This document shows, piece by piece, positions 38,099-62,821 of a DNA stretch of 64,000 bases. The stretch is from Prorocentrum cordatum (Eukaryota; Sar; Dinophyceae; Prorocentrales; Prorocentraceae): positions 22,189 through 86,188 of the forward strand of contig CAUYUJ010002751.1 in the NCBI GenBank assembly GCA_963575745.1. Reading direction: 5' to 3'. The translations under genes were made by a program, and so were the position numbers. The notes below the pieces were generated by a model. It made no database searches. It had not been told where the DNA came from and saw only the letters and a list, made by a program, of their open reading frames with translations. Position 1 is the first letter of the stretch; every line of letters begins with the position of its first letter.

Positions 38099-38227
38099 TG
38101 TGAACGCTTACCTCGCAAGGCGCCATGGGGCGCAGCAGCTGCAGGATGATGATGGTGATGGCGATCGAAAAGGAAGATGGCGATGACGTCAATGATGATT
38201 TGCCAACTTGTCTCGACGAAGCGCTGT

Positions 38228-38311
38228 CCGCAACTGCGGCCGCAAACCTTCTGCTGCACTTGCCCGCAACTGCGGCCACAAACCTTCTGCTGCACTTGCC
38301 CGCAACTGCGG
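38228..38311. repeat. 36-bp tandem repeat carrying the dodecamer
   Basis: CCGCAACTGCGG at 38,228, 38,264 and 38,300, spaced exactly 36 bases, with AAACCTTCTGCTGCACTTGC between. This is the only place where the dodecamer is in a regular array; elsewhere its spacing is irregular. Confidence 0.95.
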
Positions 38312-40161
38312 CCATTACCAACGTGTCGTTTCGTAGGTCCAGGGAGCGCGGTCGTTCCACGGCCCCGCGTGGCCCGCGTTCTGCGTCTGGTCGGGCATGC
38401 CCGCCCACATGCGATTAGGAGGCGAACCCTCCGCGGCCTTGTCCGGAACTGCGGCGCGATTATCGCCCCACCACTTCTGCTCATCAGCGCGCCATCCCGC
38501 CCAGCTCGACCACTCATCAGCGCGCCATCCCGCCCTCCACTCCCTCGCGGGATCCTCCGCCCCCCACGCGCCGCTTCCGCTGGCGCCAGAGGGCCCAGCC
38601 GCAACTGCGGCATAAGAGAGGGTCGGAACACGACCTAGAGGAAACGCACGACTTGGGAACCCCCAAACCGGGCGGTGAGATACCAGCGGCCACTGCGGTG
38701 TCGAAGGTCGCTCAGCCTCAACGGCTCCCCCCGCAACTGCGGTTCCCCTCTGGGCAGTGTTACTCTGGGCGCCCTTTCCCGCAACTGCGGCGTCCTTGTC
38801 GCCGTCGTTGTTGCTGCCCTTCTGGCCGCCCTTGCAAGCGCCTTTCTCTTGCTTCCGCTTCTTTTCCTTTTCATTCCTCTCAGCAAGCTTCTCTGGTGAT
38901 CTGCGACCCGTGTTGCGGGCGAAAGCCACCAGGGGGAAGTGCGCTCCGTTTCGCGCCTTGCCGACGGAGCCGTTCCAGATCGCGCCGCCCAGCTTGCCCT
39001 GCCTGACTCGGAAGGGGTCGAGCACCCACTCGCCCCGTGCACGGCGCGCCATCTTTTGCTCGAAATTCGCAACTGCGGCCTCGGACGCGTCAGATGGCAT
39101 CACGAAGTCGAAGCTTGTCTGCGACGGCACCAGCCTTCGGCAAGTAAGTCTGCAGCACATTCCCAGGGCCATTCGTGGAATCGAAGGTGTGGAAAGAGGC
39201 GCCAGGGGAGTTCGTTAAGAACCCACCAGGGCCGTCGTGCAGGGCGCCCAGGCCATGCCGAAGCTCGTATCTCCCAGGGCAACTGATGAACAGAATTGCC
39301 ATACTGTCTGCCCCGGGCAGGCCGCCTGCTGTCTTCCAGGGGGTCCACGCAGCGACGTCCACCGTGACTCCGCGACTGCGGCACCAGGACACGAGCTGGA
39401 AAATGCACATGTTGAAGTCCCCCATGCAGATTTTGACGCCCCACTTCGCGACGTACTCGGCGAACCACTCGTAGAATTCCTGGAGTTTCTTCGGGCCCCA
39501 GTCTTGGTTGGCCAAATTGTGGTGGACGTGCACCGCCATGACGTTGAAGGGTTCCCCCACATGGGGCAACGTTTCGTCCAGGGTGATGCGCGCAACCATC
39601 GCCCTCGAGTACTTGTTGTGCCACTTTGGCGCAGCCACCTCCGCAACTGCGGATTTCTTCTTCTTCGGCTTCGACTTCTCCTTCTTGTGGAAAAGCCTCG
39701 CGAAGTCCACGTGATCAATTTGGCCGCCACTGCGGTCTCTGAGGCCGATGAGGAGGGCCCCAGAAGGCTCTCCGCCCTTGACGCACAAGTAGTTGTACCG
39801 GGGTCGATTCATGAACTTCTCGTCCGCAACTGCGGCTGTGCTCTCGCGCGCGTCGCCCCCCCCAGAGATTGCCCTGCAGCACTCGTCGTCGCACTCGCAA
39901 AGGGCGATAATTTGGACGGATTGGCGTGGATCTGCGCGAACTCGTCTCTGCGTTGCGCGGGCTTCCCTGCGCTCTGTCCGAAGTTGGCCACGTGGAAGCC
40001 GATGCGCCCCGCTTCGCCTTGCGTTTTCTTCTGCCAAGCCTCGTAAACAGATCTCTCCTTCTCAGACACACGACTCGTCTCGATGACATGCACCCGCCTC
40101 CAGGCCCGCGTCTTCGACAGCACTTTCGGCCTGTAGGGCTCGCTGGTTGCCGCAACTGCGG
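38228..40161 (+). repeat. CCGCNACTGCGG dodecamer cluster, left part (~13 copies)
   Basis: Copies counted by eye include 38,228, 38,264, 38,300, about 38,593, 38,731, 38,778, 39,364 (N=G), 39,642, 39,723 (N=C), 39,821 and 40,150, plus one-mismatch copies near 38,446 and 39,067. Arms CCGC and GCGG are inverted repeats around NACT. All copies have ACT on the plus strand. None occurs between 1 and 38,227. Confidence 0.9.
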
Positions 40162-40363
40162 CTTCCAAATCTCCTTGTGGCTCCGCCTCGTCGGCGGATG
40201 ATGATGATGATGATGAAGCGCCTTGAAAGGTCGGTTCTCCCAAAACACAAACCTGAGAAGCCACCAATACGCCAAATGCGCACGGTAGAGAAAGAGAGAA
40301 GCGGGGGGGAAGCGGGAGAGGGGAGGGGCAGAACAAAAGATGAAGCCCAACCCAGGATTGCAA
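38315..40363 (-). pseudogene. EEP-fold nuclease gene, frameshifted
   Basis: Sense reading needs three frames: an N-terminal part in the frame spanning 40,363-39,809 (VLSKTRAWRRVHVIETSRV, YEAWQKKTQGEAGRIGFHVA), a central part in the frame spanning 40,037-39,090, and a C-terminal part in the frame spanning 39,172-38,315. The central part has EEP features: IIALCECDDE with a catalytic-type Glu, VMAVHVHHNLAN, and ICMGDFNM, the GDxN loop. The C-terminal part (FPLVAFARNTGRRSPEKL then a Lys-rich tail) looks like the end of the same protein. The closing Asp-His pair was not found. The dodecamer is present in the coding sequence, reading AVA, PQLR or RSCG depending on frame. Shifts lie near 39,920 and 39,150. 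Substrate unknown. Confidence 0.55.
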
Positions 40364-40503
40364 CCCATGATACTGAAAGAAATCATGAATGAAAGACTGT
40401 CCGATGTCCCCGAATGAAATCCACCACTAGGACCCTCTCGCTTTGAATAAAGATGAGAGCAATGAGAAACGTAATGCGAGATAATGGATTGTGCTCAAAT
40501 TGA

Positions 40504-41003
40504 TCAGAATATCTTGAGTGACTTGAGTAACTCGAGTAATTTGAGTAACTCTTGAAGCCAATCTTGATGGCATATGTTCCCACGACCTGAAGTGGTTAAG
40601 AAGTGAAGAGAACTTTCATTGAGTCCCATGAAACCCGATATACATAAGTGACAACCCAGTCGGATATATGTAGTGAAAGAAAGCCTGACATTAAACTGAA
40701 TGTCCCAAGCACGCAATGATCCCAGAAGATACGGAGGCATACAAAAATGAACTGTAAAGCCGAGTGAGAGCCCAACCGTGAGAACCCACCCCAGGTGAAT
40801 CAAGGCATATGAAGTAAGATTGAATTCTAACAACTTTGACGCAGGAAGGCTGGGAATGTTTATGGCTTTGTATTTTGCCAACCACCGACGTTGAAGAGCA
40901 TGCAAGGGAGATTGAAGGGGAACTGAGAGACCTCCAAAAGCCGCAGGCCCATGCACCGCAGACGCCAAGAGGTTCAGACTGTGGGAGTCCCAGGAGAGGC
41001 CTT
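40504..41003 (-). other. 3' part of the retroelement
   Basis: A single frame is open from 41,181 to 40,504, but its first part overlaps the small ORF at 41,248-41,003. Beyond that it is Leu/Ser-rich with no recognised motif. It contains the TTGAGTAAC-type simple repeat at 40,505-40,555 and is probably the 3' untranslated region. Confidence 0.4.
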
Positions 41004-41248
41004 CACGGATACTTCCAACGCCACTTTTCCACAAAGAAGTCTCCGTCCCACCAGTAGTCAGACAGGTACCATACCACTGGATGAGGCCAGCCAGATTCAG
41101 GGTCGAACCACGTGTCATAGTACTCCGTATACCAGACTTTGGTGTAGACTTTTTCCTCTTCACAGTAGTTCCACATACCACCTGAGCCGTGTGTCCACTT
41201 GAGACGCTTCCTAGCTGCTAGCTTGGCTGGAAGGCTGCGTTTGGCCAT
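41003..41248 (-). CDS. Retroelement small ORF, 81 aa, aromatic/acidic
   Basis: Starts at an ATG at 41,248. The first 20 residues are very basic (MAKRSLPAKLAARKRLKW). The rest is unusually rich in Trp, Tyr, Asp and Glu (VWYTEYYDTWFDPESGW, LSDYWWDGDFFVEKW). Such bias would not arise from the local base composition alone, so I regard it as probably coding. Function unknown. Confidence 0.45.
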   Translation of the reverse strand: MAKRSLPAKLAARKRLKWTHGSGGMWNYCEEEKVYTKVWYTEYYDTWFDPESGWPHPVVWYLSDYWWDGDFFVEKWRWKYP

Positions 41249-41320
41249 CCCCTGAATTGTATATGGAAGTTTCCCAGCCGTCTCGGACGAGAGTTCCCGT
41301 CAGGGTTTGAGGCGAAACGG

Positions 41321-41710
41321 CTACTGACTAACAGCCAGTTCTTTCCAAGGGACTCTCCGAACCCTTTCGTCGGGACCCCGAACGTTGACATACAGTCTAT
41401 TAAAGCCGCTGTCCCGACAAGCTTTGAAGAGCGGGATTTTGCACCAGTCATATGTGAGATGTGGACCACCAAGGTCCGATGGTATAAGAAACCGAGCAGG
41501 CAACTTGACCACCCTTTGGAATAGCAGCGTAGAGCAGTATGAGAGTGCTTCAAGGTCTTGTTTGGACAGGAAGCAGACTTTGCGTTTAGACCTGCAAAGC
41601 TTCCCCTGAAAGATAACGTGAGGGTCTGACGCCTTGGGAAGTAGCATACCGAAAGCTTGAGCCCGAGACTGCAGGAGCCGACAGGAGGCAAGGGACGAGG
41701 AAGGGCCCAT
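41321..41710 (-). CDS. Retroelement small ORF, 129 aa
   Basis: Starts at an ATG at 41,710 and ends just upstream of the 81-residue ORF. Residues 25-129 look globular (CFLSKQDLEALSYCSTLLFQ, KIPLFKACRDSGFNRLYVNV, ending VPWKELAVSQ). No family recognised. Its spacing (about 70 bases) from the next ORF fits a compact multi-ORF element. Confidence 0.45.
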   Translation of the reverse strand: MGPSSSLASCRLLQSRAQAFGMLLPKASDPHVIFQGKLCRSKRKVCFLSKQDLEALSYCSTLLFQRVVKLPARFLIPSDLGGPHLTYDWCKIPLFKACRDSGFNRLYVNVRGPDERVRRVPWKELAVSQ

Positions 41711-41923
41711 CAGAGGCAGACAGAGGGAGGCGGGATTGTTGCGAAGCCACGGTGTCCCTAAGATCGCAGAGATCAGGCGGGTCCCAGATAGAATCGCACA
41801 AGTGACATCTCCTGGTGTCAGCCAATCCCGTAGGCGGGAGGCAAAGAGAGAGGAGAGAACACAAAGGGGTCACGAAACAGACCCAAATGTAAATTCCGTG
41901 GGGTGTCAAATACCCCCGCTCCA

Positions 41924-42904
41924 TTAGTATTGGAGCCTGTTCTCTGAGGCTGCAATTAGGTAAGATACCCATACCTCTGAGGATTCCGTAACATTAAATT
42001 TGTGCACTTGCATTCCGTGGAACATTGCCACGGCAAACTTCCGAGTGTGGGGTGCACATGGGCCACGAAAAAGGCGACGGTCTTTCCCGGTCCTAGCGAA
42101 AGACCCATGTTGATCAGCAAATGTCAAAATGGACCGAATGGAGCAGATGATGGGAGAAATCCCCTGAATAATGTTCCAGAACCGATCTGGCTCAACATAC
42201 CCCGCTCCCAACCCTAACTCCATCAAATCTCCGATGAGCTCTAGCCATCGAGAAGTGTCGGGTTCCCTGTTCCACCGTTCTCGGACCATCCTCTGTACAT
42301 CGGTGACACGACCAGCGACTGATCGAAGCTCCTCCATGGACTTGGACGAAGCACTGGTAGGTTGTCTTCTTTGAAGATACCTGGCCATTTGACCCCAAAT
42401 ATTCCACCAGACAGTGTAAATGAAATTCCCAGGATCTGACCAGCGGTTGTCGTAGAACACTGCGCCCTTGTATGACATTGTCTTAATCTGTACAAAAGAC
42501 ATAGAGCGTACTGCAATTCCCACAATCCCAATAAGGTCTTTGCACGCCTTACTTGAGAAAAACTCCTCAAAGAGGTTCCATAGCTGCCTGAGAGGTATCT
42601 CGAATTCGCGTCCCTTCTCGTACATGTGGAGTGTGACACATCTCCGTGGGAGGTATGATCCTGAATTTAAAGGGACGATCTCGGAACTTTCGATTGCCAG
42701 TGCACGCGGGCAGGCAGATGCCCACGCCTCGAAGATACAGCACTGGAGCGACTTTGAATTCCATGGCCTGACGACCCTCTGAGGGGCAAGCATGAGAGTG
42801 TGTTCCCAGAAAACTTGAGAAGAGGTTGGAGCAGAACGTGCAAAGCGAATTGAACCAAAATGACTACAGAAAGCGGCCAAGCCAACAGGCCAACCGAAAG
42901 ACAA
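41924..42904 (-). CDS. Retroelement accessory ORF, ~290-326 aa
   Basis: Open from 42,904 (TTG); the first ATG is at 42,793. Well-mixed composition with helical stretches (LRQLWNLFEEFFSSKACKDL, YTVWWNIWGQMARYLQRRQ, MEELRSVAGRVTDVQRMVRE, RWLELIGDLMELGLGAGYV). No nuclease, protease or RNase H motif recognised. It lies downstream of the reverse transcriptase, where LINEs normally have only a 3' UTR. Confidence 0.45.
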   Translation of the reverse strand: MSFGWPVGLAAFCSHFGSIRFARSAPTSSQVFWEHTLMLAPQRVVRPWNSKSLQCCIFEAWASACPRALAIESSEIVPLNSGSYLPRRCVTLHMYEKGREFEIPLRQLWNLFEEFFSSKACKDLIGIVGIAVRSMSFVQIKTMSYKGAVFYDNRWSDPGNFIYTVWWNIWGQMARYLQRRQPTSASSKSMEELRSVAGRVTDVQRMVRERWNREPDTSRWLELIGDLMELGLGAGYVEPDRFWNIIQGISPIICSIRSILTFADQHGSFARTGKDRRLFRGPCAPHTRKFAVAMFHGMQVHKFNVTESSEVWVSYLIAASENRLQY

Positions 42905-42956
42905 GGATTCGAAAGATGAAGAGATAGAGAAAAGAGATGCACTTTATCAGGGATCG

Positions 42957-43335
42957 GACGGCAGTCATCGTCCTGGCCAGCAAGGTGAGATTAACAATCC
43001 CAGGCCGAACTCCTTTTGTACTGAAGTGAAGAGGCAAACTGAACGCCAAACTACCCCAAGAAAGAACTTGAAACATCGAGGACTTGGGCAAAGAGTGAGC
43101 AACAACCCCACTTAACCCCGTCAGCCGAATTGAGAAGAATATGATGCAGTCCCCGCTCCTGCGAGGTGACCTGGGGGCCTCATGCCCTGAGACACTCGTA
43201 ATCCCAAGCATTCCCAGATTGAAACGAAAGCCATAATCCTGGCAAAGTGATGAAATTGACAATCCCATCCAAGCCCGTTTTGAACTGAAGTGAAGGGCCA
43301 AACTAAGAGCGAAGCAATCCCAAGTTAAGAAATGT
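42957..43335. repeat. Diverged ~110-bp direct repeat inside the retroelement
   Basis: The segments 42,975-43,075 and 43,225-43,330 share CTGGC(C)A-A-AGGTGA, TTAACAATCCCA/TTGACAATCCCA, TGAACTGAAGTGAAG/TGTACTGAAGTGAAG, (G/C)CAAACT and CCCAAG in the same order, about 250 bases apart. The surrounding 42,905-43,530 has no convincing coding frame. Confidence 0.6.
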
Positions 43336-43530
43336 CCCATCTAGGCTGTGGGCAAAGCAAGAAACGACTCCACTACTTTGGCCCTGACGGACATATTGAT
43401 GAGAGCAGAACTTAATTCATGCCTCGGAGAAAAAGCCTGAGGTCCCCGATTGAACCAGAGTTGAACCAAGAAGAGAACTGAGGACCCAAAGGGAAGGAAG
43501 AATTTATTCGTATCTTCTGAACTGCCTCGG

Positions 43531-45330
43531 TCACATCAAGAAACGGGGTTTGCAAAGCAGGTGGCACCTAACATTGGCACCGTTATTGCCAGACTCCACC
43601 GTTATAAGATCTCCAACATCTTCATACATGTCCTTGACGTAGAGGAGTGCCACAATACAGCTGCCAGCGAAGATCTGAGATTTGTCGTGTAGCCTCTCCT
43701 TCTTAGGGCAGACCTCAGGACCAATGAACGCTTCTTTGGTATAAAACCGCGCGTTAAACAAGTGAATGTCCTTGGAACGAAACGTGTTGAGCCCAAAGTG
43801 CCAGAGAATCTTCGTGACGTCCCTGGTAGTGAGATAGCCGTGCTCTCCCAAAACCGGGATACTGTCTGAAATCAGTGGACCTTGATTGTCGATAATGAAA
43901 GGTGTAAGCTCACGAACTGTGATGATTTGGAAGTGTTCCCCGACCTTGGCCTTGAAGGTGTTCAAACCTGTCAGCTGGGGAACGAAAATCATAATGTAGC
44001 GCCTTGAGCTGGCATGGTCTGTGCCGCCCTTTGGGGCGAAAATTGGGCATCCAGAATGATCGTACTCCAACTGGGACTTCAGCACTGGAGGGCCTAGCTT
44101 GCTAATCCAGGGCTTCTTATCCTGTTCCCAACTCTTTGGAGCAGGCTGCGACTTTCGGTCAGGCGAGTCGACTTCCGCTTCAGAGCCAGAGGAGGAACTC
44201 CTGGATTCTGGTGATCCCGAAGACGGTACTTCCCCAGTAGTGCCGCCCACCGGTTTGACAGGTGTTTCCCCACGGTAGTCCTGCGTCTCTGGTAAGGCAT
44301 CATCCGAATCGGGCTTCGACCCCGACCCGCCGCCCTGCGGTTGTTTCTTGAACCCAACTGAGTACTGCATCTTCCTGGCAATCGGCGAGCGGCTCCGAGA
44401 GGCAGAGTCTCCCCTGTGCACAGGTGCTGGGGGCGGCGTGGGGAGTATCCTTGCTTCGCGAGGGTCAGCACTGGAGGAAGCTTTGGCTTTGAGACCCTGA
44501 TTCTTGAACTCGACTGACCTTGCTTGGTCCTCCTTTTTCTGTTCGAGCTTCTTCTGCAACTTGGCTTTCTTCTCATTCGAGGTAAGAATGGGCTTCGTTT
44601 CCATCTTGGCCAGACGCTTCCGAGCCCAACGATCTAAGGCGTGGCGGTCGAAGCCAAAGAAAAGGGGGATAGTCGGCTGAATATGATTCCCAGTCCAATC
44701 CAGATCCTGAGAGTAACAGGTGTCCGTGGTGAAAGTAAAAGGAGGCCCCGCTGGGCGCAGTACAATAGCAAATGTGTGTCTGGATGCACCAGACAGAGCC
44801 GATGGCTACTGAAGGCGAAGGTGAAGCGGTTGCCGAACCCAATCGAGCATTTCTTTAGCGAGGCCCAAACGAAACTTTTTGTCCCGAGAGCCCTGTGGGG
44901 AGAATAAGGTGGTCCAGGCATCCTTGTCATACCTGAAAACGTACCCCCTATGCGAGCGAGAGTGGGTACGGCTGCCACCGAAGTGGTCAAAGGAGCGATT
45001 CTGAATGACCCAATGCTTGCAATATTGAAACAGCCTCGACGAAAAATCTTCTGGATGTCTTTGCATGTGTGAAACCCAACTAATAGCAGAGTCCAAATGG
45101 AAAATAGCCCATGAGACTTCTTTGAACCCCTTGGTTTTGCGATTTCTGCGTAAACTGAATTGTTCGGGAGATTCCCCTGGGAGCCTTCTGAGTTTCAACA
45201 TGATCCTGATACATTGATTCTGGGCCTTGGTAATCAAATCCGCCGTCGTCTTACAAGGGACCCAGGCAGCACCTCTGGATCGTATAATCCCTCCCGCCAT
45301 GCAGTTAAGTTTAGAGAGGCGTTTAGACAT
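43531..45330 (-). pseudogene. ORF2 C-terminal region (thumb and extension), frameshifted
   Basis: After the frame of ORF2 closes at 45,234, LINE-like sequence continues in a second frame (45,330-44,806): AAWVPCKTTADLITKAQNQC, then RIMLKLRR, typical of the region after the RT palm. At about 44,830 it shifts again into a frame that is open before the ATG at 44,604 (including PLFFGFDRHALDRWARKRLA) and runs to 43,531. The last 357 residues have a Lys/Glu-rich helix, a Ser/Pro-rich linker with GSEAEVDSPDRK, and a globular end (YIMIFVPQLTGLNTFKAKVG, IFAGSCIVALLYVKDMYEDV). The final domain is unrecognised. The ATG at 44,604 could start a separate ORF, but the open upstream frame argues for a continuous ORF2 of well over 1,300 residues. 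Confidence 0.55.
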
Positions 45331-47747
45331 GGGATATGCTCATTGATCAAGAACCTACTGTTAGCCCAAAAGGCTTTGTTGATCTGTGAAATACCCTGCT
45401 TGACATCTTCGTGACAGGAACCAGTGGCGGAGAGAATTGGGCCCAGCACCTTGGCCTCCGGCACTACAGACCAAGTTTTCCCAAAGGGGTCAGACCACTT
45501 GTATCCTTGAAAGAAGTAGGGGTATGCCGGAAGGATTTCCCGATCGTCTTTGAGTTTGAGCCGATGTTCATTCCATAGCTCCGACTCTACCAGGGCGGTC
45601 AGAGTTGCAAGGTCTTGTTCCGAGGAAGCCACCACGAAGATATTGTCTGACCAGCTGAGAAGCGCAATCCTGAAATCAAAGCCCAACTGCTCGCTGCGGA
45701 TGGAGATTCCCAAAGAAGAATGGGTGATTTTCTCCAGGGTGGAGGCGAAACAATCTTCGACGGAAACGCGCGCCAGTATGCATGCCGTCCCAGCTCCTTG
45801 CATCAACCCACGGTCTCTTTGGATAATCCCAGTGTTTGAGTCCAAAAGTGAAATGGAAACTCGAGGGTTCCTGTGCAACCTGATGCAGCCCACCGCTAAG
45901 AAAAGAGGGACTCCCCGTCCCAATAAACTCCGTAGAACCAATCCATAACGAATCTGATCATGGTGAGCTTTGATATCAGTAATCCCAACCATTCCTTTGT
46001 TGAAGTGATCTCGGCCATATTCTAAAATGTGGTAGACACTCGTGTGAAGTTCTTGTAATTGTCCACCTTTGCTGAGCCCAAAAATCAGGCCCTTGAGACC
46101 TTTAGAATCAGTGTATGAATCCAGAACTGGCAAAATGGCCCTCGCCACATATGCGTGCCCAATCTTGGCAATAGCAGGCTGAGGAATAACAACTCTAGTT
46201 TGAGAAGGGGTTCCAAAACCCTTGATCTTGTTACCCAGGTGGCCCCCGAATGTGACGTCGTTCCAAAATTCGGGGTTGCCTAAGCAGGCTTGTATACACC
46301 CCGTGAGCCTTTGGGACCAGCCCGAAACTTTTATAACAGCCGTGCAGGCAAACTCTGTGTCGATCTTTCGGGGGGCCTTGATGTCGTCCAGCGCGTCCTC
46401 TAGCAAGGAGAAGATGATGGGGTCGTCGTAAAAATTGAAGAAACCCAAAGAGCGGAGCCAGGCGATGTCCTCCTGACGCTCCGAATCTGAGAGTCCCCAC
46501 CTCTCGCTGTATTCTTCAGCAACCAGTGAGGTACAGCGGTCCACTTCAAAAATCTTGACTTGATCTACACAGAAACCTAAAATGGGTAGGAGAGACTTGC
46601 GGGAGGCCCAGACTCGTTTTCCTTGAGAGGCGTTGAGCGCAACCTGAGCCAATTCACGTTGAAGTTTCGTTATCTTAAGAGCTTTCAAGAGGAGCTGACC
46701 CAAGGCGACCCTCGTGGCTTCGTTAAGTTCGGAGTTGAACCGTGTCCTGAGACTCTTGATCCAAAATGGCTCTTCGGCAAATCTCCTAAAACTCCTTGGG
46801 AGAGCCTGAGTCGCTTCATAAACCTGTCCCAACATGTTTTCCCAGAAATCGAAGGAGAGGGTGAGGTCCCTTGGATCGTGATACCTTACCGCACATGAAT
46901 CAGGCTGTTCTTCGTCATTTAGACGAATAAGTTCCGCTGATTCGGGAAACAGGCCCTGGGCGATCTTCCTGACCTCCAAAATGTTAGTAGGAGTCCAAAG
47001 GAGAGGTCTTCTCTTACGAGCCTGCTGGGGGAAGGCCAGGACATCACAGCCAATAAGGGCATGGTCCCCAGGGACGCCTGCCCAGCAGGCGAAACAGTCA
47101 AAAGATAGATCACCCCTGGCGAGAGCAATGTGATCGATCGTGCTGTTGGCTTGAGAGAGCGCCTGCTCACCATCGGGCTTCCTAGTGAATTGCATGGAAG
47201 TCTCTTGGAACCTGAGAGGGCACCAATGGAGATCGAGGTAGGAACAGGCTTCGCAGAACGATCGGAATGTTTGGTCTCCGTTGCCTTGATCGGCATTCAT
47301 GTCCCCCAACCAGGAGAGAGTAGACCCCACAGGGCGGGATCGACCGAGTTGGATGGCACAGTTTAGAGAATCATGGAAAAAATCATGGGCAAGATGAGAG
47401 AAGAGAAAGGATCTGGCATGATGGTGGCATCCATCGAGACAGTCAGGACGAAGATCAACACGGATAGATCTCCAATCGCAGACAATGTCTTTCACACGTT
47501 TTCTCAGAGATTTGTGCACAAGCACGCCCATGGCCCTACACCCAGGGCCAGAATGATGACGGTAGTAAGCGTGGCCATTGAAAACGGGGCGAAGTAGCCC
47601 ATCGTTTTGAAGGCAGCCCTTGAAATCCGCCTCTAGGATACAAATTAAGCCCCAGCACTTCAGCTCGAGCAAATCTAGGTTGGCTTGCATTTGAGTCTCG
47701 TCGGCCCACTTGCCCTGCACATTGGGTGCACAAACGAGGCCCCTCAC
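45234..47747 (-). CDS. Retroelement ORF2: APE endonuclease and reverse transcriptase
   Basis: An 837-residue frame. The endonuclease occupies about 1-240: YVRGL-like start, LEADF with Glu39, LSWLGDMNADQG (GDxN at 148-151), STIDHIAL (205-206) and GDHALIGCDV (Asp-His at 228-229). The reverse transcriptase is about 420-760: motif A GITDIKAHHDQIRYG with Asp591, motif B RGLMQGAGTACI (650-651) and motif C LLSWSDNIFVV (Asp701-Asn702). In most RTs motif C is YxDD; here the second Asp is Asn (codon near 45,644). No in-frame ATG precedes the GTG at 47,747 and a TGA lies just upstream, so the N-terminus is frameshifted or missing. The product would nick target DNA and prime cDNA synthesis in the nucleus. 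Confidence 0.85.
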   Translation of the reverse strand: MRGLVCAPNVQGKWADETQMQANLDLLELKCWGLICILEADFKGCLQNDGLLRPVFNGHAYYRHHSGPGCRAMGVLVHKSLRKRVKDIVCDWRSIRVDLRPDCLDGCHHHARSFLFSHLAHDFFHDSLNCAIQLGRSRPVGSTLSWLGDMNADQGNGDQTFRSFCEACSYLDLHWCPLRFQETSMQFTRKPDGEQALSQANSTIDHIALARGDLSFDCFACWAGVPGDHALIGCDVLAFPQQARKRRPLLWTPTNILEVRKIAQGLFPESAELIRLNDEEQPDSCAVRYHDPRDLTLSFDFWENMLGQVYEATQALPRSFRRFAEEPFWIKSLRTRFNSELNEATRVALGQLLLKALKITKLQRELAQVALNASQGKRVWASRKSLLPILGFCVDQVKIFEVDRCTSLVAEEYSERWGLSDSERQEDIAWLRSLGFFNFYDDPIIFSLLEDALDDIKAPRKIDTEFACTAVIKVSGWSQRLTGCIQACLGNPEFWNDVTFGGHLGNKIKGFGTPSQTRVVIPQPAIAKIGHAYVARAILPVLDSYTDSKGLKGLIFGLSKGGQLQELHTSVYHILEYGRDHFNKGMVGITDIKAHHDQIRYGLVLRSLLGRGVPLFLAVGCIRLHRNPRVSISLLDSNTGIIQRDRGLMQGAGTACILARVSVEDCFASTLEKITHSSLGISIRSEQLGFDFRIALLSWSDNIFVVASSEQDLATLTALVESELWNEHRLKLKDDREILPAYPYFFQGYKWSDPFGKTWSVVPEAKVLGPILSATGSCHEDVKQGISQINKAFWANSRFLINEHIPCLNASLNLTAWREGLYDPEVLPGSLVRRRRI

Positions 47748-47894
47748 GTAGGCCTCTCATAGAGAGAGTGCCTCGTCGATGGTGTCTTTCAGCGTCTTGC
47801 GGAGCGCTTCATCGGGGATCTCCTTAAGAGACTCGTGCCACTGAAATTCCCCATCCTTGATAACACCTATCTGATGATCCAAGACGAAAAATTT

Positions 47895-48821: not shown

Positions 48822-49083
48822 GGCCGAAAGTGTAAGTATGAGCCAGTTACCCACGATTCGATATGAAAATGAAGCGCCGAATTGGCAAAACCCAATAAAT
48901 TCGCGAATTCGCAAAATTGAGTCGATATCCCACCAATGAAAGTGATATCCCACTGATAAATCTCACTGATTGAACCCAAATTGAACCAATCTCGCTGACC
49001 TCGACGAAAACGAAGGCAGCGATGGCGGCCGCGCCCCCCGCGGCCGCCCCCCCGCGGCCGCCCCCCCGCGGCTTGCCGATCAC

Positions 49084-49105
49084 CTTGAGCCAAAATGGCG
49101 GCGGA
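49084..49105 (-). other. Dinoflagellate spliced-leader relic
   Basis: On the minus strand this reads TCCGCC then GCCATTTTGGCTCAAG. It matches the 22-base dinoflagellate spliced leader at 20 of 22 positions, the exceptions being TA replaced by CC at positions 5-6. It is followed by GTGATCGG and lies about 260 bases upstream of ORF1 of the retroelement. Alternative: on the plus strand the same bases contain CCAAAATGGCGGCG, which could be a start context for a 49-codon frame (49,095-49,244); the two readings are not exclusive. Confidence 0.6.
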
Positions 49106-53966: not shown

Positions 53967-54135
53967 TCATCTCGCGCACAAGGTTTCTATGCATATCTAC
54001 GAAGCTCTGCGTCAGCGTGCACCCAGTAAGCACACGGGGGTGTGTTCTCGTGAAACACCCCAACCCTTCAAAAAGACAAGCGATTTCTGGCCCTCGGAAA
54101 GCCCCCTCAACCCCGCAACTGCGGCGCTCGTTGCC

Positions 54136-55200
54136 TCAGTGCCCGCGCCCCCGTTCAGCCCCGCAACTGCGGCGTCGCCGCAACTGCGGCCAGTTCGGTT
54201 TCGAGCTCAGAGCAAGAGAGACGGGACGACGACGTCGAGATCGTCCAGGGCCTGCCAGGGCCGCCTGCTTCCTTTGCTCGTCCGTGATTCTGACCCAGTC
54301 GTAGTCGTACGCCTTCGCATCCCTCGCTGTCTCCCATTTCTTCTTGGTCTGTTTCTTCACCTCCATCTCGATCGTCTTGCCGCGGTTGGCGCACTCGCGC
54401 GTGATCGTGGCCACCCAAGCGCCTTTGAAGTTCCATGCGACGGTGTAACCAGCCCCGCTTCCCTGCGCCACGGGGGGCTCGTCCGCGACTGCGGCTTCGT
54501 CCTTATCGCCGTCCGCGACTGCGGCTTCGCCCCTCTTGCCGTCCGTGATGTCGGGCACCCCGCCGAGGCCCACGTCGTCCATGATCGTCAAAATCAACCA
54601 CTCAAGGTCTTTAGCGTCGAGCCACAGCGTCCGCCGCTTGAAGCTGGCCACCCGCACGTGGCGAACGTCCTTGTCGCCTGGAAACTTCAACTGGCTCCTG
54701 CCGGGCATCTGCACGCAGTGCACAGCGGACACGTGTCTGTCCGCAGCCTCGCCTCTTGGCAGGCCAGACTTCGAGGCCTGGTGGGAGCTACGCTCTCCCG
54801 TCCTCTGCTTCTCGGTGGGCGTCACAGTCGCGGCCTGCCTCTTCGTGGCGCCCGAAGCACTGACCAAGGCCATCATTGGGTCATCTTCACCATCTCTCTC
54901 ATCGTCGCTCTCCTCGCCCGCAACTGCGGCGCCTTCCTGTTTCGCCAGTGTGTCCTTGAGGTCCAGCCAGACCTTGGAAGCCTTCAGCGCCCCTGCCGTT
55001 GGTTTACCCTTCGCGCACACCTTCAGCAACCATTTCTTCTGCACGTTCACGTGCACGAACGTGATTGACCCAGTGGGCCCTGCGTCAAGCACTCTGACGC
55101 CCTTCTCGGGGAGGGGGGTTGTCTGCGGAAGCCCCCCCCCCCCCCAGATGCACAAGGCCATCTGCACCTTCACAGGGCTCCATTCGCTCGAAGAACCCAT
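54136..55200 (-). CDS. Hypothetical protein (354 aa)
   Basis: Open from an ATG at 55,200 (MGSSSEWSPVKVQMALCIWG). Residues 35-80 look globular (SITFVHVNVQKKWLLKV, KASKVWLDLKDTLAKQEG). An acidic and Ser/Thr-rich linker follows. About 165-300 is globular again (GDKDVRHVRVASFKRRTLWL, DLEWLILTIMDDVGLGG, YTVAWNFKGAWVATITREC), and the tail is basic and repetitive. Dodecamers read AAVADGDKDEAAVADE and PQLRRRRSCG, all in coding sequence. Unrecognised family. It lies about 170 bases upstream of the transposase gene on the same strand. Confidence 0.55.
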   Translation of the reverse strand: MGSSSEWSPVKVQMALCIWGGGGLPQTTPLPEKGVRVLDAGPTGSITFVHVNVQKKWLLKVCAKGKPTAGALKASKVWLDLKDTLAKQEGAAVAGEESDDERDGEDDPMMALVSASGATKRQAATVTPTEKQRTGERSSHQASKSGLPRGEAADRHVSAVHCVQMPGRSQLKFPGDKDVRHVRVASFKRRTLWLDAKDLEWLILTIMDDVGLGGVPDITDGKRGEAAVADGDKDEAAVADEPPVAQGSGAGYTVAWNFKGAWVATITRECANRGKTIEMEVKKQTKKKWETARDAKAYDYDWVRITDEQRKQAALAGPGRSRRRRPVSLALSSKPNWPQLRRRRSCGAERGRGH

Positions 55201-55852
55201 GTCCGCAAATTACTGCGGATGACCCCACCGCAACTCGGGGAAAGCAGGGCCGCGCGGGCAGCGAGGTCGCGTCCGAGAGGGGTGCGCTTTGAGCCAGACG
55301 GCGCCTCGACTGAATCTGCGGGGAGACCCTACATCGATTGTCACGCCCCATCCGCGCATGCGCCGCCCTTCCGTCTGCGCGCGCCCCCCCGAGGCCCGCC
55401 TTTGCGAGAACGTTCAAAGCAGTCCCCTGGGGCTGCTTTGAACGTTTGCACTCAGGGGGGCGTTTCGGGCGGCCGCGCGGTCCGAGGAGCTGCTGACTGT
55501 TCCCGCGCACGGGGGGCGGGGGGCGGAACGGGGCGGAGGGAGGCGCCCAGATGGCGCGAGGAGGGCGCTCACGTGCCCCCCGGAAGAGGCGCGACAGCAG
55601 GGGGGGCAAAAGCTGCTTCTGCATGGGACTCAGAGCTTCGCTCGTACCTCAGTGCGTGGACGTCGGCAATCCGCGACTGCGGCGACACTTCACGGCCTCC
55701 TTAACCAAACAAGCAACTACTACAGCACTCCGCCACTGCGGTCGCAAGCGATATGATTCAGCAGCGAGTGGCGCCTGAACGCCCGCCACTGCGGTTTCGG
55801 AAAACCACCGAATCAAGGAACGAATTCGTAGAGCAACCGCCACTGCGGTTTC
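55201..55852. other. Spacer with hairpin and dodecamers
   Basis: Contains a dodecamer relative with AATT inserted (CCGCAAATTACTGCGG at about 55,204), the long hairpin at 55,409-55,446 and four dodecamers (one with N=G, three with N=C). Frames on both strands are short and Arg/Gly-rich; no gene supported. Confidence 0.5.
55409..55446. repeat. Long copy of the AAGCAGTCCC hairpin
   Basis: AACGTTCAAAGCAGTCCC, then CT, then GGGGCTGCTTTGAACGTT: 18-base arms with one mismatch. The same element is at 38,030-38,059, about 17 kb away. Confidence 0.95.
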
Positions 55853-58255
55853 TTAGAGCGACATCTTGCCTTTATCGTCGAAGCCACTCCTCGTCTTCTT
55901 CGACGGCGGTTGCCCCGAAGCCTTGCCCTTTGCCCTTTTGTTCGCATCCGTCCTCCACGTCTCCTCGACCGCCTTCTTCTTCTGTGCGGCTTTGGGCCTC
56001 GCCTGGCAAAAGACTTCTTCTCCTGGCCCGATGTCCGTCGCATTCACCAGCACGGGCAGCTTCACGGCGACCACTAGCCCACTTGGTCCTGGAACACACA
56101 CGGCCAGCTCTTTATCCTGGAGCTCCATGTTGATACGCGCAACTGCGCTTCCAATACGCTCGTTCCTCTGGTGGAGCTCTTGCTGCGTGACTCTGTTGAC
56201 GGCCCAGAAGAGGTGCATTGTCTCTTGAGCACCCCAGTTCCACGTTCTCAACCGCACATCGTGGTCTGCCACCTCGGCGGGCGTCTTGTCCGCAGGGGGC
56301 TGGAACTCTGGCAGCAGGTAGAAGGTCTTGATTGAAGGCGCATCTGGTCCTCCTTTGACCCAGACCTGCACTGGCACCCTCTCGGGGCGCGCGCTCGTGG
56401 ACAGCAGCTTGGACGCCTTTGGGGCGCATGGCCACAACTCGATGGAGTGCGCCTCGTGTGCGGCGGTTGCCTGGACGGTGCGCTTGCCCGGTTCGGCGTC
56501 TTGGAGCACGTCCACTTTCGCTTCCGCAACTGCGGACTTGTGGCGCGCCCAAAGACACAACAAGACTGCGCCTGCAAGAGCAGGCTCCTGTCCTAACTCC
56601 TGGGCTGCCGCTGAACACTTCCATTCGTTGATTGGCCATGGGAAGGGTCCGAGGCTCGTGGCCGTAGCGCCCCTGCAGTCCCGTTGGTTCGTGGGCAGGT
56701 GCGTATTGGGATCAAAGGAAATGACCCCCGGCTTCAACGCGACCTCCCTGGAGGCCGTTGCCTTTCCCGCAACTGCGGGCTTGTCGGCGCCCGTGCGCGG
56801 CAACGCGTTGAAATCAAACCAAGCGGGCTTTTCGTTTCGGACAGGCAGCTCTTCCACAGCCTTCGCGAGCTTTTCCGCGTGGGTCTTCGGCTGCAGCAGC
56901 TCCGTCGCATCCCTGCAGGCGCGGACGAGCGCATGTCGAAATTCGATGACACTTCGCGCCTTCGCCGAGGCGTCCTTCAGGTCTGCACGTAGCTGTCCGC
57001 GGTCAGTATGCCGACGTTCGCCTTGAACTCCAAAGCCTTGTCCTTTCCCATGTCCTGGGGGGCGGGACCCAGCGTGTGATAGTACATGCGGAGAACGGCG
57101 TTCATGTCCTGCAAGAATTCCAGCGCCTCACCCTTCGTCCAGGCTGCTTCTGGATCAGGGCACCACACGGCGGTGGTCACCCCGCGCTTCTTCGGAGGCG
57201 CGTTCCGGTAGCATCGCACGAGAATCGCTAATTTTGACCCACGGAACGTGGTCGGGAAGCGCGGCAGCGACCCCAAAGGCACCGAGCCGAAGGGCCCTTC
57301 TCTTCGAGTTCACGTACACCTCGCAGAACTGGAGCAGTAGGTGGATGAACTGCGCTTTCGTGCCCCCGAGCCCAACGACAAACGAACACAATTCAATGAA
57401 GTCGGGGTCCTGAACGACACGATCGAGTTCGAGCATCACTGACGTCCTCACGCTTTCAAAAGCCACCTGGTCCGCGACTGCGGCGTCGAGCGCTGCGTCA
57501 ACAGCCTTGCACAGGACGCTGAGCGCTGTGACCTCAGTCGATCACATCGCAAAGTCCGCCCCCTTACTGAGCGCCTGGCTGATGAGGGAAGCGCCAGTGG
57601 GCTCCTCGACCATGATTCTCCAGCTGAGCACTTTCATGAGCATACCCTCCTGCGTGAGCTTCTTAGCCACAGCGTCGTATTCCGCCACTGCGGCCATATT
57701 GATGTTGCCATCCTCATCAAGCACGCGCTGCAGCCTGGCGCGCTCTTCCTCCGTTAACTCCATGCCCGCGGGGATGGGCCACCGGGCCCCTGCAACGATT
57801 GCCCGCAACACGAGGCACAAGTGGGAATGCGACAACGTGCCATACGCTATGTCTGCCCCGCTACTGCGGTCGAAGCACGCAGCGAGGTGCCCTGTCGCTT
57901 TCTTGTGATTGTACTCGGTGTACGTCTCGAAAGCAAGATCTTTCGCCTTCTTCTCCATCAGCTCTCGAGTCGGAAACATCTGGACGCATGCGCCCTCGCG
58001 GTCGGCTTCCGCTTGCGAAAATCCAGACACGATGATTTCCACAGCGAGCTCCCGAACCCTTTCCTGCTGAGGGTAGTGGCCGCCCCGGTTGTTCAGGTGC
58101 GGGGCCAGCAAGACCACGGGAATGCGCACCTTCTTGCTCCCGTCCCTGAATTTCGCCCTAATCGCGGTGGCCTTCTGAAAAATCCCCCGCGATCCGTCCG
58201 CCACTGCGGCTCCCACCTTTTCGTTTTGCTCGCCTTTCCCGAGGCTGTCACTCAT
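55853..58255 (-). pseudogene. Large hypothetical gene, frameshifted
   Basis: A protein-like path starts at an ATG at 58,255 (MSDSLGKGEQNEK), runs to 57,542 (IPVVLLAPHLNNRGGHYPQQ, DLAFETYTEYNHKKATGHLA, YGTLSHSHLCLVLRAIVAGA, VLSWRIMVEEPTGASLISQA), continues in the frame spanning 57,466-57,155 (FIELCSFVVGLGGTKAQFIH) and the frame spanning 57,282-56,977 (SKLAILVRCYRNAPPKKRGV, WCPDPEAAWTKGEALEFLQD), and ends in the frame spanning 56,857-55,853 (TWNWGAQETMHLFWAVNRVT; Lys/Arg-rich tail). Together about 770-800 residues. No known domain recognised. At least three frame changes are needed, so the gene is broken or the sequence has indels. Dodecamers interrupt it throughout, for example as AAVADGSRG. 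Confidence 0.5.
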
Positions 58256-58387
58256 TGCACCGAGCCGCGCCCACGGCCGACACTTCCGCAACTGCGGAAA
58301 ACGGCCCCAAGTGCGTCGCCTGTGGCACTGGCTGAGGGCGAGGGGCCCAAAGACTTCCTGAGCCCAAAATTCTGCGGCATGTTTCAA

Positions 58388-58760
58388 AGTCTGGTCTGGT
58401 CAGGGTCTGGTCTGGGTCTGGTGGTGGTGGATGATGGTGGTGGTGATGGTGATGATGATGATGATGGTGATGCTGGTGATGGTGATGATGATGATGCTGA
58501 TGCGGTTCGGAGACCAAACGATTCACCTCAGACCTCAGCAAGAGCAATGGGCCAGAAGTACTAGGACTACTACTACTAGTTCTTCTACTTCTACTACGAC
58601 TACTACTACTAGTACTACTAGGACTACACCTACAACTGCCACTACCACTACCACCACCAGTACCACGACCACTACCAGTACATACCACTAACACTCCTAC
58701 CACTACCATACCACTACCACTACCACTACCACCACCAGTACCACGACCACTACCAGTACA
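58388..58760. repeat. (GAT/GGT)n and (ACT/CCA)n microsatellites
   Basis: 58,405-58,500 is GGT/GAT-rich. 58,560-58,620 is CTACTA. The block ending CACGACCACTACCAGTACAT occurs at about 58,640-58,683 and again at 58,712-58,761 as a direct repeat. Confidence 0.9.
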
Positions 58761-59089
58761 TAATTACCCTAATTACCACCGCCGCCCCCCTCCCTGCGCG
58801 CGCCTTTTGCTCTCATGGGCACCCTGCGCCCGAGGAAGGGCACGCATCCTTTCTCCCTGCGCGCCGTCGCACCGCAACTGCGGGCCCTCCGACAACGCCA
58901 GCCGCAACTGCGGTCTTTCCCACGCCGACACATGCACTCAAGCAGCCAGCAAGCCTCTGACACCGCAACTGCGGGCCCTCCCAGCACATCGTTCCGCAAC
59001 TGCGGCCATGCGCGCCGAGTCCGCCACGGGCATGCGCGTGCAAAAAGAAGTACGGCGCAAGAAAGAAACGCCCGCAACTGCGGGTCCGC
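58761..59089. other. Spacer with five dodecamers
   Basis: Gene-free DNA between two co-oriented genes with dodecamers near 58,872, 58,901, 58,963, 58,992 and 59,071: five in about 210 bases, among the densest non-coding runs in the window. Confidence 0.75.
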
Positions 59090-60965
59090 TTACCTCCGCG
59101 GTTTCTCCTGGTAGTGCTTCCCTTTCTGGCCGCTTCGCCCGCGCCCTAGGAAGATGATGTTCTGGTGGGCGCCTTCCCGCCAGTGGCCCTGAAAAGTCTT
59201 GGGGTAGAGCATATCCTGAACGACCTTGCCGATGGGGGGCAGCGCTTGGAGGCCGAGGCGTCGCCGCATTCCGCTACTGCGGTCACGGTCCTCTCGCCAC
59301 TGCGGCATGCGCATCAGGTAGGGACCCAGCGCCGTGCGATGAGAGACTCGGTAGTGCGAAGCATCCAGTCGGGGAGCCAGAGAGGCCCATGATCCGCGCG
59401 CTTCCCTGCGCTGTCGGTCTTGTAGTCCGCAATGCGCACGCCGCTCGGGCCAATGGGGGCCATGTAGTTGGGATGCATGACGCGTGTACCAGATTTGATG
59501 CCTCCGAACAGGGCGGGCCATGCGCGGAACGGAACTCCGATCGGGCACTTGTAGCTCGCACCGCAACTGCGGCAGAAGTCTGAGAACTGCTCTGGCGGGA
59601 CGTCGAAGAGGCCGCACAGGAAACGAACATCTTGGGCATGGATGGTTTCGACGGCTTCCATCACGAAAGACTCCTCCCAACATGTTTGTTCTGCTTGCGT
59701 GATTTTCGGTTGAAGAGGATGGGGAACCGCGTGCCTGGTCATTACGGCGAAACCGAGCACCGCGGCAGGATTCCTCTCGGAGCCCTTCAAGCGAAACCGC
59801 ACGATCGTGAGGGCGTGGGTGGCCCCAACGACGCTTGCCGCAACTGCGGCCTCACTGACAAAGTGCGGGCGCCACACAACGAGGCCAGTCTTGTCGAAGA
59901 GCTCCGCCATCATCCAGCAAGGCTCGCCGCTGCTGTTGGGCCCGTTCTTCACCGTGATGGCGTCCACGACGGCGCCGTGGAAAGTCCATGAAGGGGCGCG
60001 GGGTCCGCTGACTGCGGTTCCCCCGAGGCCGAAGCACCTCGATGTCCCACGCGACGATGAAGATCCCCGGTTTTGGGGCATCGACAGCGGCGAAGACGTC
60101 TTGCTTGGTGGCCGCGGCAGTGATGACCAGCACGTTCACAGTCATGGCGAGGGTGGGCGGCACCGGGAGGCCGCCCACTGTCCTGGCGAGCCCCTGGTTC
60201 CACGTGGGCGCCGCCCCCATGTACCTGATGCCCTGGGTCCGCTGCTTCTTGCGCGGTGGCTCCTCGGAGTCCCGCAACTGCGGTTCCGCGCTACCCCGCG
60301 ACTGCGGTTCCGAGGGAAGCTGCAGGGGAGGCGATGTAGGAGACGCCACAGGACGAGGCCTCTTCTGCGGGAACCGAGCCTTCGACGCGGCCGCAGGGGC
60401 TTGTCCTCGGGGGCAGTGGCCGAGGCGGCCGTCTCCTTAGAAGCGGCCTCGTCTTCGGGCCCAGGCGAAGACGAAGAGAGAGGTACTCCCGCAACTGCGG
60501 TCGGAGCTGCCGCGTCAAACGGACTAGAGGTATTTGCGCAACTGCGGTCCTGGTGGAAGCTTTGGCAACTGGCGGCGTCGGGTCCCGCGCGCGCAACTGC
60601 GCTCTGGGAGCTCCGTGCGCGCGGCGCAACTGCGCCCCCCTGCGCCTCGGGGCACTCCGAGACCGCTCGCGCGGCTGCGCCGCGGAGGAACTTGCGCCCG
60701 TCGGCGGCGGCCGCCGCCGATCCCTGCTGCAACTCGACGCCGAAGTCGCCTCGCGCGGCGCTCGCTCGGGGGATCCGCTACTGCGGCTTTCTCCTCCCCG
60801 AAGGCTGCGCGGCGCTCGCTGGGGGGATTCGCCACTGCGGTTTTCCCTCCTTGCAAAGCGCGCTTCCAGGCGGCCCCTCAGCACCGCCAGCATCTCCTCA
60901 TGGGTGACCTCCAACTGCGGCACGCCGCCGCGAGAAGCGCGCCCCCCCAACGGATGCTCGGACAC
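59090..60965 (-). pseudogene. Hypothetical gene, frameshifted, with RS-rich N-terminus
   Basis: The path begins in the frame spanning 60,965-60,291 (LEVTHEEMLAVLRGRLEARF followed by a long Arg/Ser/Pro-rich region), passes to the frame spanning 60,349-59,852 (LAMTVNVLVITAAATKQDVF, FIVAWDIEVLRPRG), then the frame spanning 60,081-59,314 (WTFHGAVVDAITVKNG, CWMMAELFDKTGLVVWRPHF, a Cys-rich FLCGLFDVPPEQFSDFCRSC, IGVPFRAWPALFGGIKSG) and ends in the frame spanning 59,683-59,090 (VQDMLYPKTFQGHWREGAHQ, basic tail). No known domain recognised; the Cys residues may be structural. Dodecamers occur in all segments. Confidence 0.45.
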
Positions 60966-61351
60966 GGCTGCGGCGAATGAGGAAGAGGGCGACGGGCGCG
61001 AAGGCCAGGATTGGCAATTACGAAGAGGACAGCGAGGAGGACGACGGAGGGAACGAGGACACCGAGGGTGGCCTCAAGAACGCAAGCGTGGTAGGACAGG
61101 ACTGGGGACGAGGAGGAGGAGGGGGGCGACGAAGGAGAATCGAGGAGAGATAGAAGACGACAAAGTAGGACCAAAGGGCCTGACATTGACGAAGGGGAAT
61201 CCAGAAGAGATAATTAATTAGGCGACGACAAGAGTAAGACAAGATGAGGCGTGGAGTTTTTCTTCGTGACTCTTCGCGCGAGAAGCCGCGCGCCGCAACT
61301 GCGTTTCCGCCTGCCGCAACTGCGGACAAGCCCAAATAATTGCTGATTGAC
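60966..61351. other. Spacer
   Basis: Gene-free GA-rich stretch (61,020-61,240), then two dodecamer-like sites at about 61,295 (mutated to CTGCGT) and 61,312. Confidence 0.5.
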
Positions 61352-62601
61352 TCAAGGGAAGTGACGCGCGGACGAACCGCCTGCGGAGTTCACTCGCGCG
61401 GGCGCCGCAACTGCGGGCGGACGCATGCGGAATGCGAGCGGGGGCGCCGCAACTGCGGACGACGACGCGCGAAGTGAGTGAAAGGATCGCGGTGTCACGA
61501 GATCGGTTTCCGCAACTGCGGTTTCAAGCCCTCTCCCACCTCGGTTGTAGCCCAGCTCCTTGGTTGCGTCGAACCGCCCCGATATTGGCTTGGCGTGCAA
61601 TCTCTTGTAGCATGAGTACGTGCCACGTCCCGCGCTCTTGCCGAGGCCCGCCCCCGGGGGCTGCACGGGCCCCCAGCGAGGCTCAACCTCATACAGGCTG
61701 AACTTCGGACTGGACCATTCCGGGTGAACGCGAATGCCTGAGCCGTCGTCGCGGATGAGGACGAAATCCCACACGGGCAAGCGGACTGCCTGCGCTTCTC
61801 CTCTGCCACCCCTTTGGCGTGCCTCTTGTGGTCGTAACTGCCCGGGCACGGGCGAAACTCGCACCTGACCAATCCGCGACTGCGGTCGTTGTCAGGGCCG
61901 CGCACGACGAGTTCCATTGTGGCCGCATCCATCTGCGCGACCAGCTGCAGCCAAGACCACGAGACCAGTTCTGCGCGGCCCCACTCCCAGCCCCTGTTGC
62001 CCTGCGCCCCTCCGCGCCCTTTGCGCTTGATAATGCGCGAAATCTGCTCCACAACTGCGGGGTCAAAAACAGGAAATCGGCTGTTGAAGGGGTCAGCTGG
62101 GTTTTCGTACTCTTCGCGGTAGTACTTCAAGGCCGCGCTGTGCTGCTTATAGTTGCCATGCCAGCGCGCCACGTAGGTTTGGAAGTACTCCAACGTGTAC
62201 ACCCCAGGGCGGCTTGCGTCCGCAACTGCGGCACCTCCTCGCCCTGGGACATGCGCCACTGCGGTTTTCCCCTTGCCCTTCGCGTCGTCTGCCGCTCGCC
62301 CTGCGGGGGCGCCCTCTCCTTGGACGTGCGCAACTGCGCCTTGCCATTGGTTTTCGCGGCCGCCTTCCCATCCGCCCCAGAGGCCGTCTTCCCCACCGCT
62401 ACAGCGGCCGTCTCCCCATCCGCTCCAGCGGTCCTGCTCGCGTTCGCCTGCGCCCTCTCCTCCACCGCTGGCGCGGCCCTCCCAACTTCCACTGCCGCCA
62501 TGAGTTCCGCCGCCACCCTCCTCTCCGCATTGCCAACCTCCGCCGCCGCACTCCCATCCGCGACTGCGGTCAACTCCGTCGCCGTTTCCCCATCCATCCA
62601 T
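61352..62601 (-). pseudogene. Hypothetical gene with Gly-rich N-terminus, frameshifted
   Basis: Starts at an ATG at 62,601 (MDGWGNGDGVDRSRG). The first 120 residues are Gly/Trp/Ser/Glu-rich low complexity. A globular part follows (YTLEYFQTYVARWHGNYKQH, YYREEYENPADPFNSRFPVF, LVSWSWLQLVAQMDAATMEL, LVRCEFRPCPG). At about 61,800 the sense reading moves to the frame spanning 61,864-61,352 (LPVWDFVLIRDDGSGIRVHP, FSLYEVEPRWGPVQPPGAGL). Unrecognised. Because 12 is a multiple of three the dodecamers add residues (AVA, PQLR, RSRG-like) without shifting the frame. Confidence 0.45.
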
Positions 62602-62821
62602 TTGCCATACGCCACTGCGCCAATCTCCGCCTTGCCATCCACCACTGCGGCCATCCCCACCGCCCCATCCGCCACTGCGGTCGTCCCACCATCCACGAGC
62701 TGCCCCATCGCCGCCTTTGCCCCATGGAGGCCCCGCAACTGCGGCCCTTTTTTCCCGGAAAGGGCTTTGGCCCAGGGTTCTCTTTTAGTTGGTAAACCTA
62801 ATCCCCCGGTGCCTGCTTGAG
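62602..62821. other. Upstream flank of the Gly-rich gene
   Basis: Contains the last dodecamers (about 62,668 and 62,733) and marks the right end of the dodecamer compartment. No promoter recognised. Confidence 0.5.

Follow-up and report, generated by a model that had tools for sequence, protein, structure and literature searches.

We analysed a 64,000-base window of the Prorocentrum cordatum genome (throughout, "the window" means this whole stretch), in which a 12-base motif, CCGCNACTGCGG, is concentrated in a mobile element. The motif has 67 exact matches in the window, whereas 100 dinucleotide-preserving shuffles of the same stretch averaged 0.10 and never gave more than 1. A preliminary description of this DNA had put about 65-70 copies, far above chance, in 38,228-40,161 and 49,165-62,744, and none in the first 38 kb. 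Both statements hold: the first copy starts at 38228, the last ends at 62744, and the rest of the window outside the two tracts has none. All 67 copies lie on the + strand. The homologous open reading frames (ORFs) of the element lie on the - strand in both tracts, and the coding-sense form of the motif is therefore CCGCAGTNGCGG. Its N is T in 47 of the window copies, C in 9, G in 7 and A in 4. In mRNA the motif reads CCGC-AGUN-GCGG, in which four base pairs would close an AGUN loop. The clustering that had been described as one genomic compartment is thus real, and the compartment itself is a mobile element, a copy of a repeated 16-kb transposon.

We searched the genome (4.13 Gb in 21,875 contigs, designated C1, C15, C84, C9335 and so on) for further copies. 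The window element, a later insertion aside, is colinear with C15:271-286 kb and has the same gene order. A young copy at C9335:456599-473038 measures 16,440 bp, with inverted ends and, counted from stop to stop, six long ORFs, all on the sense strand. It carries 67 motifs in sense and none in antisense, and no motif was found in about 12 kb of its unmasked flanks (~1.3 kb on the upstream and 10.7 kb on the downstream side). The terminal inverted repeats (TIRs) of this copy are about 0.1 kb long (positions 2866-2968 and 19203-19305 of a 30-kb stretch) and 77% identical as an inverted pair. At the 5′ end, TA adjoins ATCC in C9335 and in 8 of 10 further young copies, the other two not having it at the predicted place; at the 3′ end, GGAT is followed by TA in C9335 and in all 10. 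The sequence outside the TA differs among young copies, as with a TA target site duplication.

The element is repeated many times. A 32-base sequence from its 5′ end occurs 225 times genome-wide, and the reverse of that sequence, used as a control, 0 times. Searching with a 402-amino-acid ORF of the window gave at least 103 scored matches, of which 24 have 84-100% identity and 79 have 78%; a 1,389-amino-acid open frame is common to 55 of the latter 79, as counted from the match list. Five pairs of young copies were compared over ~4 kb; identity is 99-100% in four pairs and 96.7% in the fifth, which points to recent activity of the element. Among the best 30 of the 103 transposase loci, the window's own included, every one has 11-18 motifs, on the gene strand only.

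Genome-wide, the motif has 33,633 matches (17,588 and 16,045 on the two strands), and the reversed pattern has 5,964 (2,958 and 3,006). The count across the assembly that had been proposed as a check thus finds the motif 5.6-fold commoner than its reverse. Among the first 100 genome matches listed, 61 fall in three one-strand clusters (C4, C15 and C84), 5 in a two-strand repeat of C3 and 34 elsewhere. The C3 repeat (L052, C3:993524-995439) consists of five CCGCCACTGCGG copies in both orientations, some of them 318 or 354 bases apart, and is without homology to the element ORFs of the window.

The features of the window copy, which is decayed and split by a long interspersed nuclear element (LINE), are collected in Table 1.

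Table 1 Features of the motif-bearing element in the window.
Feature	Position	Strand	Remark
3′ TIR with subterminal palindromes (GTTCAAAGCAGTCCC..GGGACTGCTTTGAAC)	37993..38107	-	ends GGATTA
11 copies of CCGCAGTNGCGG (coding sense)	38228..40161	-	3′ part of element: ORF GH and its 3′ spacer
ORF GH homology	38318..40135	-	GDFN endonuclease-like region; separate ORFs in window
LINE-like element	40198..49099	-	inside ORF GH; motif-free; TCCGCC at both junctions
GCCATTTTGGCTCAAG at LINE 5′ junction	49084..49099	-	spliced-leader-like
56 copies of CCGCAGTNGCGG (coding sense)	49165..62744	-	5′ part of element: ORFs A to F, spacers, start of GH
ORF F homology	49631..53819	-	CDGNCG (OTU-like) and DD35D transposase-like regions
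ORF E homology	54256..55200	-	65% amino acid identity to young copy
ORF CD homology	55856..58195	-	62% amino acid identity to young copy; more than one open frame in window
Paired variant GCGC-AGTT-GCGC	56137..56148	-	same variant at 60591-60602, 60624-60635 and 62328-62339
ORF B homology	59096..60400	-	47-62% amino acid identity to young copy
ORF A homology	61559..62202	-	58-59% amino acid identity to young copy

The window sequence at 37993-38073 matches the young copy's 3′ TIR at 79% identity. No 5′ TIR of the window copy turned up in the sequence as far as the contig end; 62785-64000, where the 5′ end of the element is expected, is occupied by tandem CCCAGCACGACCACA-type repeats and by ACAAGCGTTTCGCTCGAGACATCC repeats. 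Palindromic repeats of the form GTTCAAAGCAGT..ACTGCTTTGAAC stand at element ends (37993-38107) and also internally (55412-55443; C9335:464751-464878). Compared with its relatives, the window ORF F has its frame broken near 51,340 and is interrupted by a stop near 50,150. The first part of ORF GH lies beyond the LINE, at ~49.1-49.3 kb, and at 39090-39101 the endonuclease-like ORF overlaps the next one (GATGCCATCTGA), where the young copy has a single ORF of 703 amino acids. The ORFs of the C15 copy are broken by long runs that read as poly-Lys (L046 ~4200, L047 ~3170), possibly introns or microsatellite growth.

The motif-free gap at 40.2-49.1 kb corresponds to the LINE-like retroelement, which is an insertion in the motif-bearing element. 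Its reverse transcriptase-like ORF spans 45234-47756 (RVT_1, E 0.065, below the cut-off), and its 3′ end is a CAT-type repeat. We take the sequence at its 5′ junction to correspond to the 3′ portion of the spliced leader of dinoflagellates, and the insertion looks like retrotransposition of a trans-spliced transcript. In three copies of the transposon (C9335 ~457414, L048 and L050), GTTCGGCTCAAG, similar to the spliced-leader end, lies upstream of the first main motif run. Elsewhere in the window, 14561-36000 is GC-rich and motif-free, with long ORFs on both strands that appear retroelement-like by eye.

The 1,389-amino-acid ORF F has a DD35D triad (D796-D923-D959, assigned by eye) and is a candidate pogo-like transposase of the IS630/Tc1/mariner group. 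Performing Pfam searches, we obtained DDE_3 (E 0.0016) and DDE_1 (E 0.023) on the C15 copy, both below curated cut-offs, and no Pfam DDE match in the young copy's ORF. The labels OTU-like, for CDGNCG in ORF F, and endonuclease-like, for GDFN in ORF GH, are presumptive, being drawn from these short motifs and from recall. With the pogo family of IS630/Tc1/mariner (DDxD), the element shares the TA target site and the TIRs, and it has a candidate DD35D-like triad in a DDE-like protein. Tc1 and mariner are about 1.3 kb long with one ORF and the ciliate Tec/TBE elements have three ORFs, according to the accessible text of PMC7325037, which mentions no dispersed hairpin motif. Unlike Tc1/mariner, the element described here has 16.4 kb and six long ORFs.

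The motifs run through the genes and beyond them. In the young copy, 49 of the 67 lie inside stop-to-stop ORFs, at the three codon offsets in numbers of 31, 13 and 5, and 18 lie in spacers; the first stands ~0.94 kb inside the 5′ end and the last ~0.17 kb before the 3′ end. In the copies examined, the motif is confined to the coding sense, where it occurs in all three frames and also in spacers.

The motif belongs to the element, and its positions are retained in diverged copies. When the window, C15 and C84 are aligned pairwise with BLAST, in pieces that may overlap and include simple repeats, identity outside the motifs is 75%. An exact match in the partner copy is found for 27 of 34 ungapped motif sites and for 621 of 9,787 other 12-mers. 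Of the eleven fixed positions, ten are 94-100% identical and the first is 85% identical; N, at 68%, does not rise above the background. The bases adjoining the motif are 71% and 44% identical, and the second base upstream is 85% identical.

Purifying selection acts on the nucleotides of the motif themselves and leaves N free. Between the young copy and C15, four-fold synonymous sites are identical at 52 of 58 places in the motif, 7 of 16 at N and 379 of 850 elsewhere (p = 4e-12); between the young copy and the window, the figures are 84 of 88, 17 of 21 and 763 of 1,158 (p = 1e-10). The young copy is nearly identical to C84, which makes that synonymous comparison uninformative. According to the preliminary description, the copies would be ordinary conserved sequence if orthologues showed identical residues at identical places. 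Such sharing is found in part, but the synonymous sites show that the nucleotides are conserved too.

We also aligned 31 copies of the transposase region (30 loci and C15) and followed 22 sets of motif columns. Most of these sites keep their alignment column across the copies. At three of the 22 (columns 3053, 3086 and 4617) the motif is present in one subfamily and absent in another, any difference in length being one of 6 bases, not 12; two more sets stand at the alignment ends, where most copies have no letters. In a protein alignment of one ORF, four of five exact motif sites are ungapped against relatives without the motif. The motif is a selected nucleotide sequence and not a 12-bp insertion.

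On balance, we think that the motif is probably an RNA hairpin tag on the transcripts of this giant 16.4-kb multi-gene TIR transposon (IS630/Tc1/mariner, pogo-like). A role in RNA is favoured because of the orientation in the coding sense only, the conserved loop, the paired alternative stems and the synonymous constraint, and the RNA hairpin is the best supported of the options that had been listed for the motif. We scanned four copies, 51.5 kb in all, for AGTN loops on 4-bp stems. The sense strand has 204 CCGC/GCGG stems, 15 GCGC/GCGC, 2 TCGC/GCGA, 1 GTGC/GCAC and 1 CCGT/ACGG, together with 8 CCGC-type stems paired through G-U and 11 unrelated ones; the antisense strand has 5 stems, all unrelated. 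In the window, the GCGC-AGTT-GCGC variant has 4 matches against 0.13 expected, all on the strand of the main motif. Comparing homologous sites, we find two distinct positions that swapped the stem and yet stayed paired, and four that paired by G-U, next to 69 comparisons with the same stem; the comparison of the young copy with C84 yielded no rows after filtering. The first flanking pair is matched at 74 of 204 sites (58.4 expected), a weak extension of the stem. Strand-specific conservation, a paired stem and a fixed loop, as expected of a dispersed RNA hairpin, are all found. That the motif acts as a folded hairpin in RNA is supported but not proven.

Several results count against a hairpin. 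Of the 40 one-mismatch forms in the four copies, 14 are stem transversions and 14 affect the loop; the remaining stem changes are C>T in 8 and G>A in 4. Pairing was lost in 13 homologous-site comparisons and the loop changed in 6, and the covariation amounts to a small count of 2 sites. The predicted pairing in context has no sense advantage (sense/antisense 0.40/0.48, 0.44/0.50 and 0.53/0.59 in three copies); in the young copy the real flanks give no more pairing than shuffled ones (0.40 vs 0.47), and in the other two copies the figures are 0.44 vs 0.33 and 0.53 vs 0.40. Decaying copies show C>T over G>A by 11 to 4, the asymmetry that G-U pairing would leave, but without significance (p = 0.12) and with similar background rates of the two changes. 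Among these copies the third loop base is the most changeable (10 of 42 distinct single changes). The genome-wide excess of the GCGC variant is small (8,829 vs 8,250), and flanking pairs 2 and 3 are not above expectation (68 vs 79.9 and 67 vs 73.6 over the 204 sites). Rfam has no match in window positions 38,000-63,000, and Pfam finds no RNA-binding domain in the ORFs of the young copy, of which CD was covered for 641 of its 825 residues. In addition, orientation to transcription is indistinguishable from orientation to the element, because the genes and the element share one polarity.

If the motif is an RNA hairpin tag, a trans-acting RNA-binding protein, most likely encoded by the element, would bind many hairpin copies co-operatively. 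The bound hairpins would mark the transposon's own transcripts, told in this way from host mRNA, for export, protection, 3′-end handling or translation. ORF A has a glycine-rich RSGG/GGW stretch that could be RNA-binding; this is only a lead, because the stretch is partly encoded by the motif itself. We put forward only tentatively the further idea that the transposon has evolved a self-recognition code, with a strand-specific hairpin in every gene and spacer, a binder of its own and handling of self transcripts. Gene control in dinoflagellates is reported, in the accessible text of PMC12787238, to be mainly post-transcriptional and translational.

The polarity of the motif may come from the element and not from transcription, the motif then being a polar signal in double-stranded or single-stranded DNA, such as a mark against self-insertion, a compaction signal or part of a strand-specific repair or replication step. 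Because all genes share the polarity of the element, we allow this explanation an appreciable chance, although we regard it as unlikely. Motifs throughout the body of the copies examined, in one orientation relative to the element, agree with it, as do the palindromic arms and the folding in context without sense preference. However, the motifs track the coding part of the young copy and not its ends, and a near-palindromic site in double-stranded DNA would hardly require one orientation. The stem arms also co-change in some cases, and in the young copy every stop codon has a motif shortly after it.

This last arrangement suggests another explanation, a 3′-end or gene-boundary RNA signal for cleavage, trans-splicing or translation stop and restart from one gene to the next, the copies within genes then being superfluous but tolerated. 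In the young copy, the motif falls within 20 nt after all six stop codons, a result matched by 9 of 20,000 circular shifts, and spacers hold 9.2 motifs per kb against 1.9-4.6 per kb in ORFs. We nevertheless find a boundary signal rather improbable: nearly three quarters of the young-copy motifs (the 49 of 67 given above) lie within ORFs, and their in-frame synonymous sites are conserved there.

The other explanations fare far worse. Selection on repeated peptides is scarcely credible: AVA, RSxG and PQxR, encoded by the motif, recur above shuffled expectation in the pooled transposase relatives P0002-P0016 (they are absent from the distant relatives P0013-P0015), but these three peptides stem from three frames, 18 of 67 copies are outside ORFs, synonymous sites are conserved and N is free. 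A 12-bp mobile insert or excision footprint, which had been proposed together with a check for exact insertions against motif-less relatives, has next to no chance; it would suit the many copies in one place and the few sites that differ between subfamilies, but copies that are 65-76% alike have motif positions in common and no clean 12-bp gap appears in the covered parts. A phage or virus origin was rejected after a double-motif scan of viral_contigs, which gave 42 stretches; more than 3 copies were present at two loci only, both on one contig, of which L009 shows a tandem repeat, and no transposase relatives were found in viral_contigs. A search of PDB profiles gave a single match, at E 0.12.

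A fixed 12-mer under selection across the coding body of a DNA transposon, shaping amino acids in three frames, would point to an undescribed dinoflagellate recognition system, and the motif would provide a defined RNA bait for a dinoflagellate nucleic-acid-binding protein. If the factor is element-encoded, the motif would be a mark of self versus non-self mRNA in a class II transposon. A bloom-forming alga is also shown to carry a recently active 16-kb transposon in high copy number. No description of the motif or of the element was found in the literature searched, including the accessible text of PMC10666404, with supplements and most subscription papers outside the search. The motif letters of one strand occur in one paper, which in its accessible text is on Bdellovibrio, and those of the other strand in no paper found. 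The presence of the motif in other organisms is only suggested, by the peptides of the transposase relatives.

Among known systems, the HIP1 octamer of cyanobacteria, a genome-wide perfect palindrome, had been proposed as the nearest parallel. Both motifs are short, GC-rich, palindrome-like and hyper-abundant inside genes, but the likeness ends there, as the present motif is strand-polar and concentrated in one transposon family. The yeast RNase III Rnt1 cuts AGNN-tetraloop hairpins, and its known substrates have stems longer than 4 bp. Here too the loop begins with AG and its last base is free; the third base, however, is mostly U, and the 4-bp stem does not extend at pairs 2 and 3, so a hairpin of the Rnt1 type was rejected. 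An iron-responsive element, which has a CAGUGN loop on a long upper stem and a bulged C, was rejected as well: the loop here reads CAGUNG with N mostly U, and there is no extended stem. The dispersed packaging signals of RNA viruses and the repeated Smaug/Vts1 hairpins place many short hairpins with conserved loops along one RNA, within coding sequence. In contrast to these, the carrier here is a DNA transposon, the hairpin is one nearly fixed 12-mer and not a set of varied stems, and the binder is a presumed one. In En/Spm, the TnpA sites are subterminal 12-bp DNA sites near the ends, in both orientations. As in En/Spm, a 12-bp motif is repeated many times in a DNA transposon; here it keeps one orientation and runs through the coding body, not at the ends.

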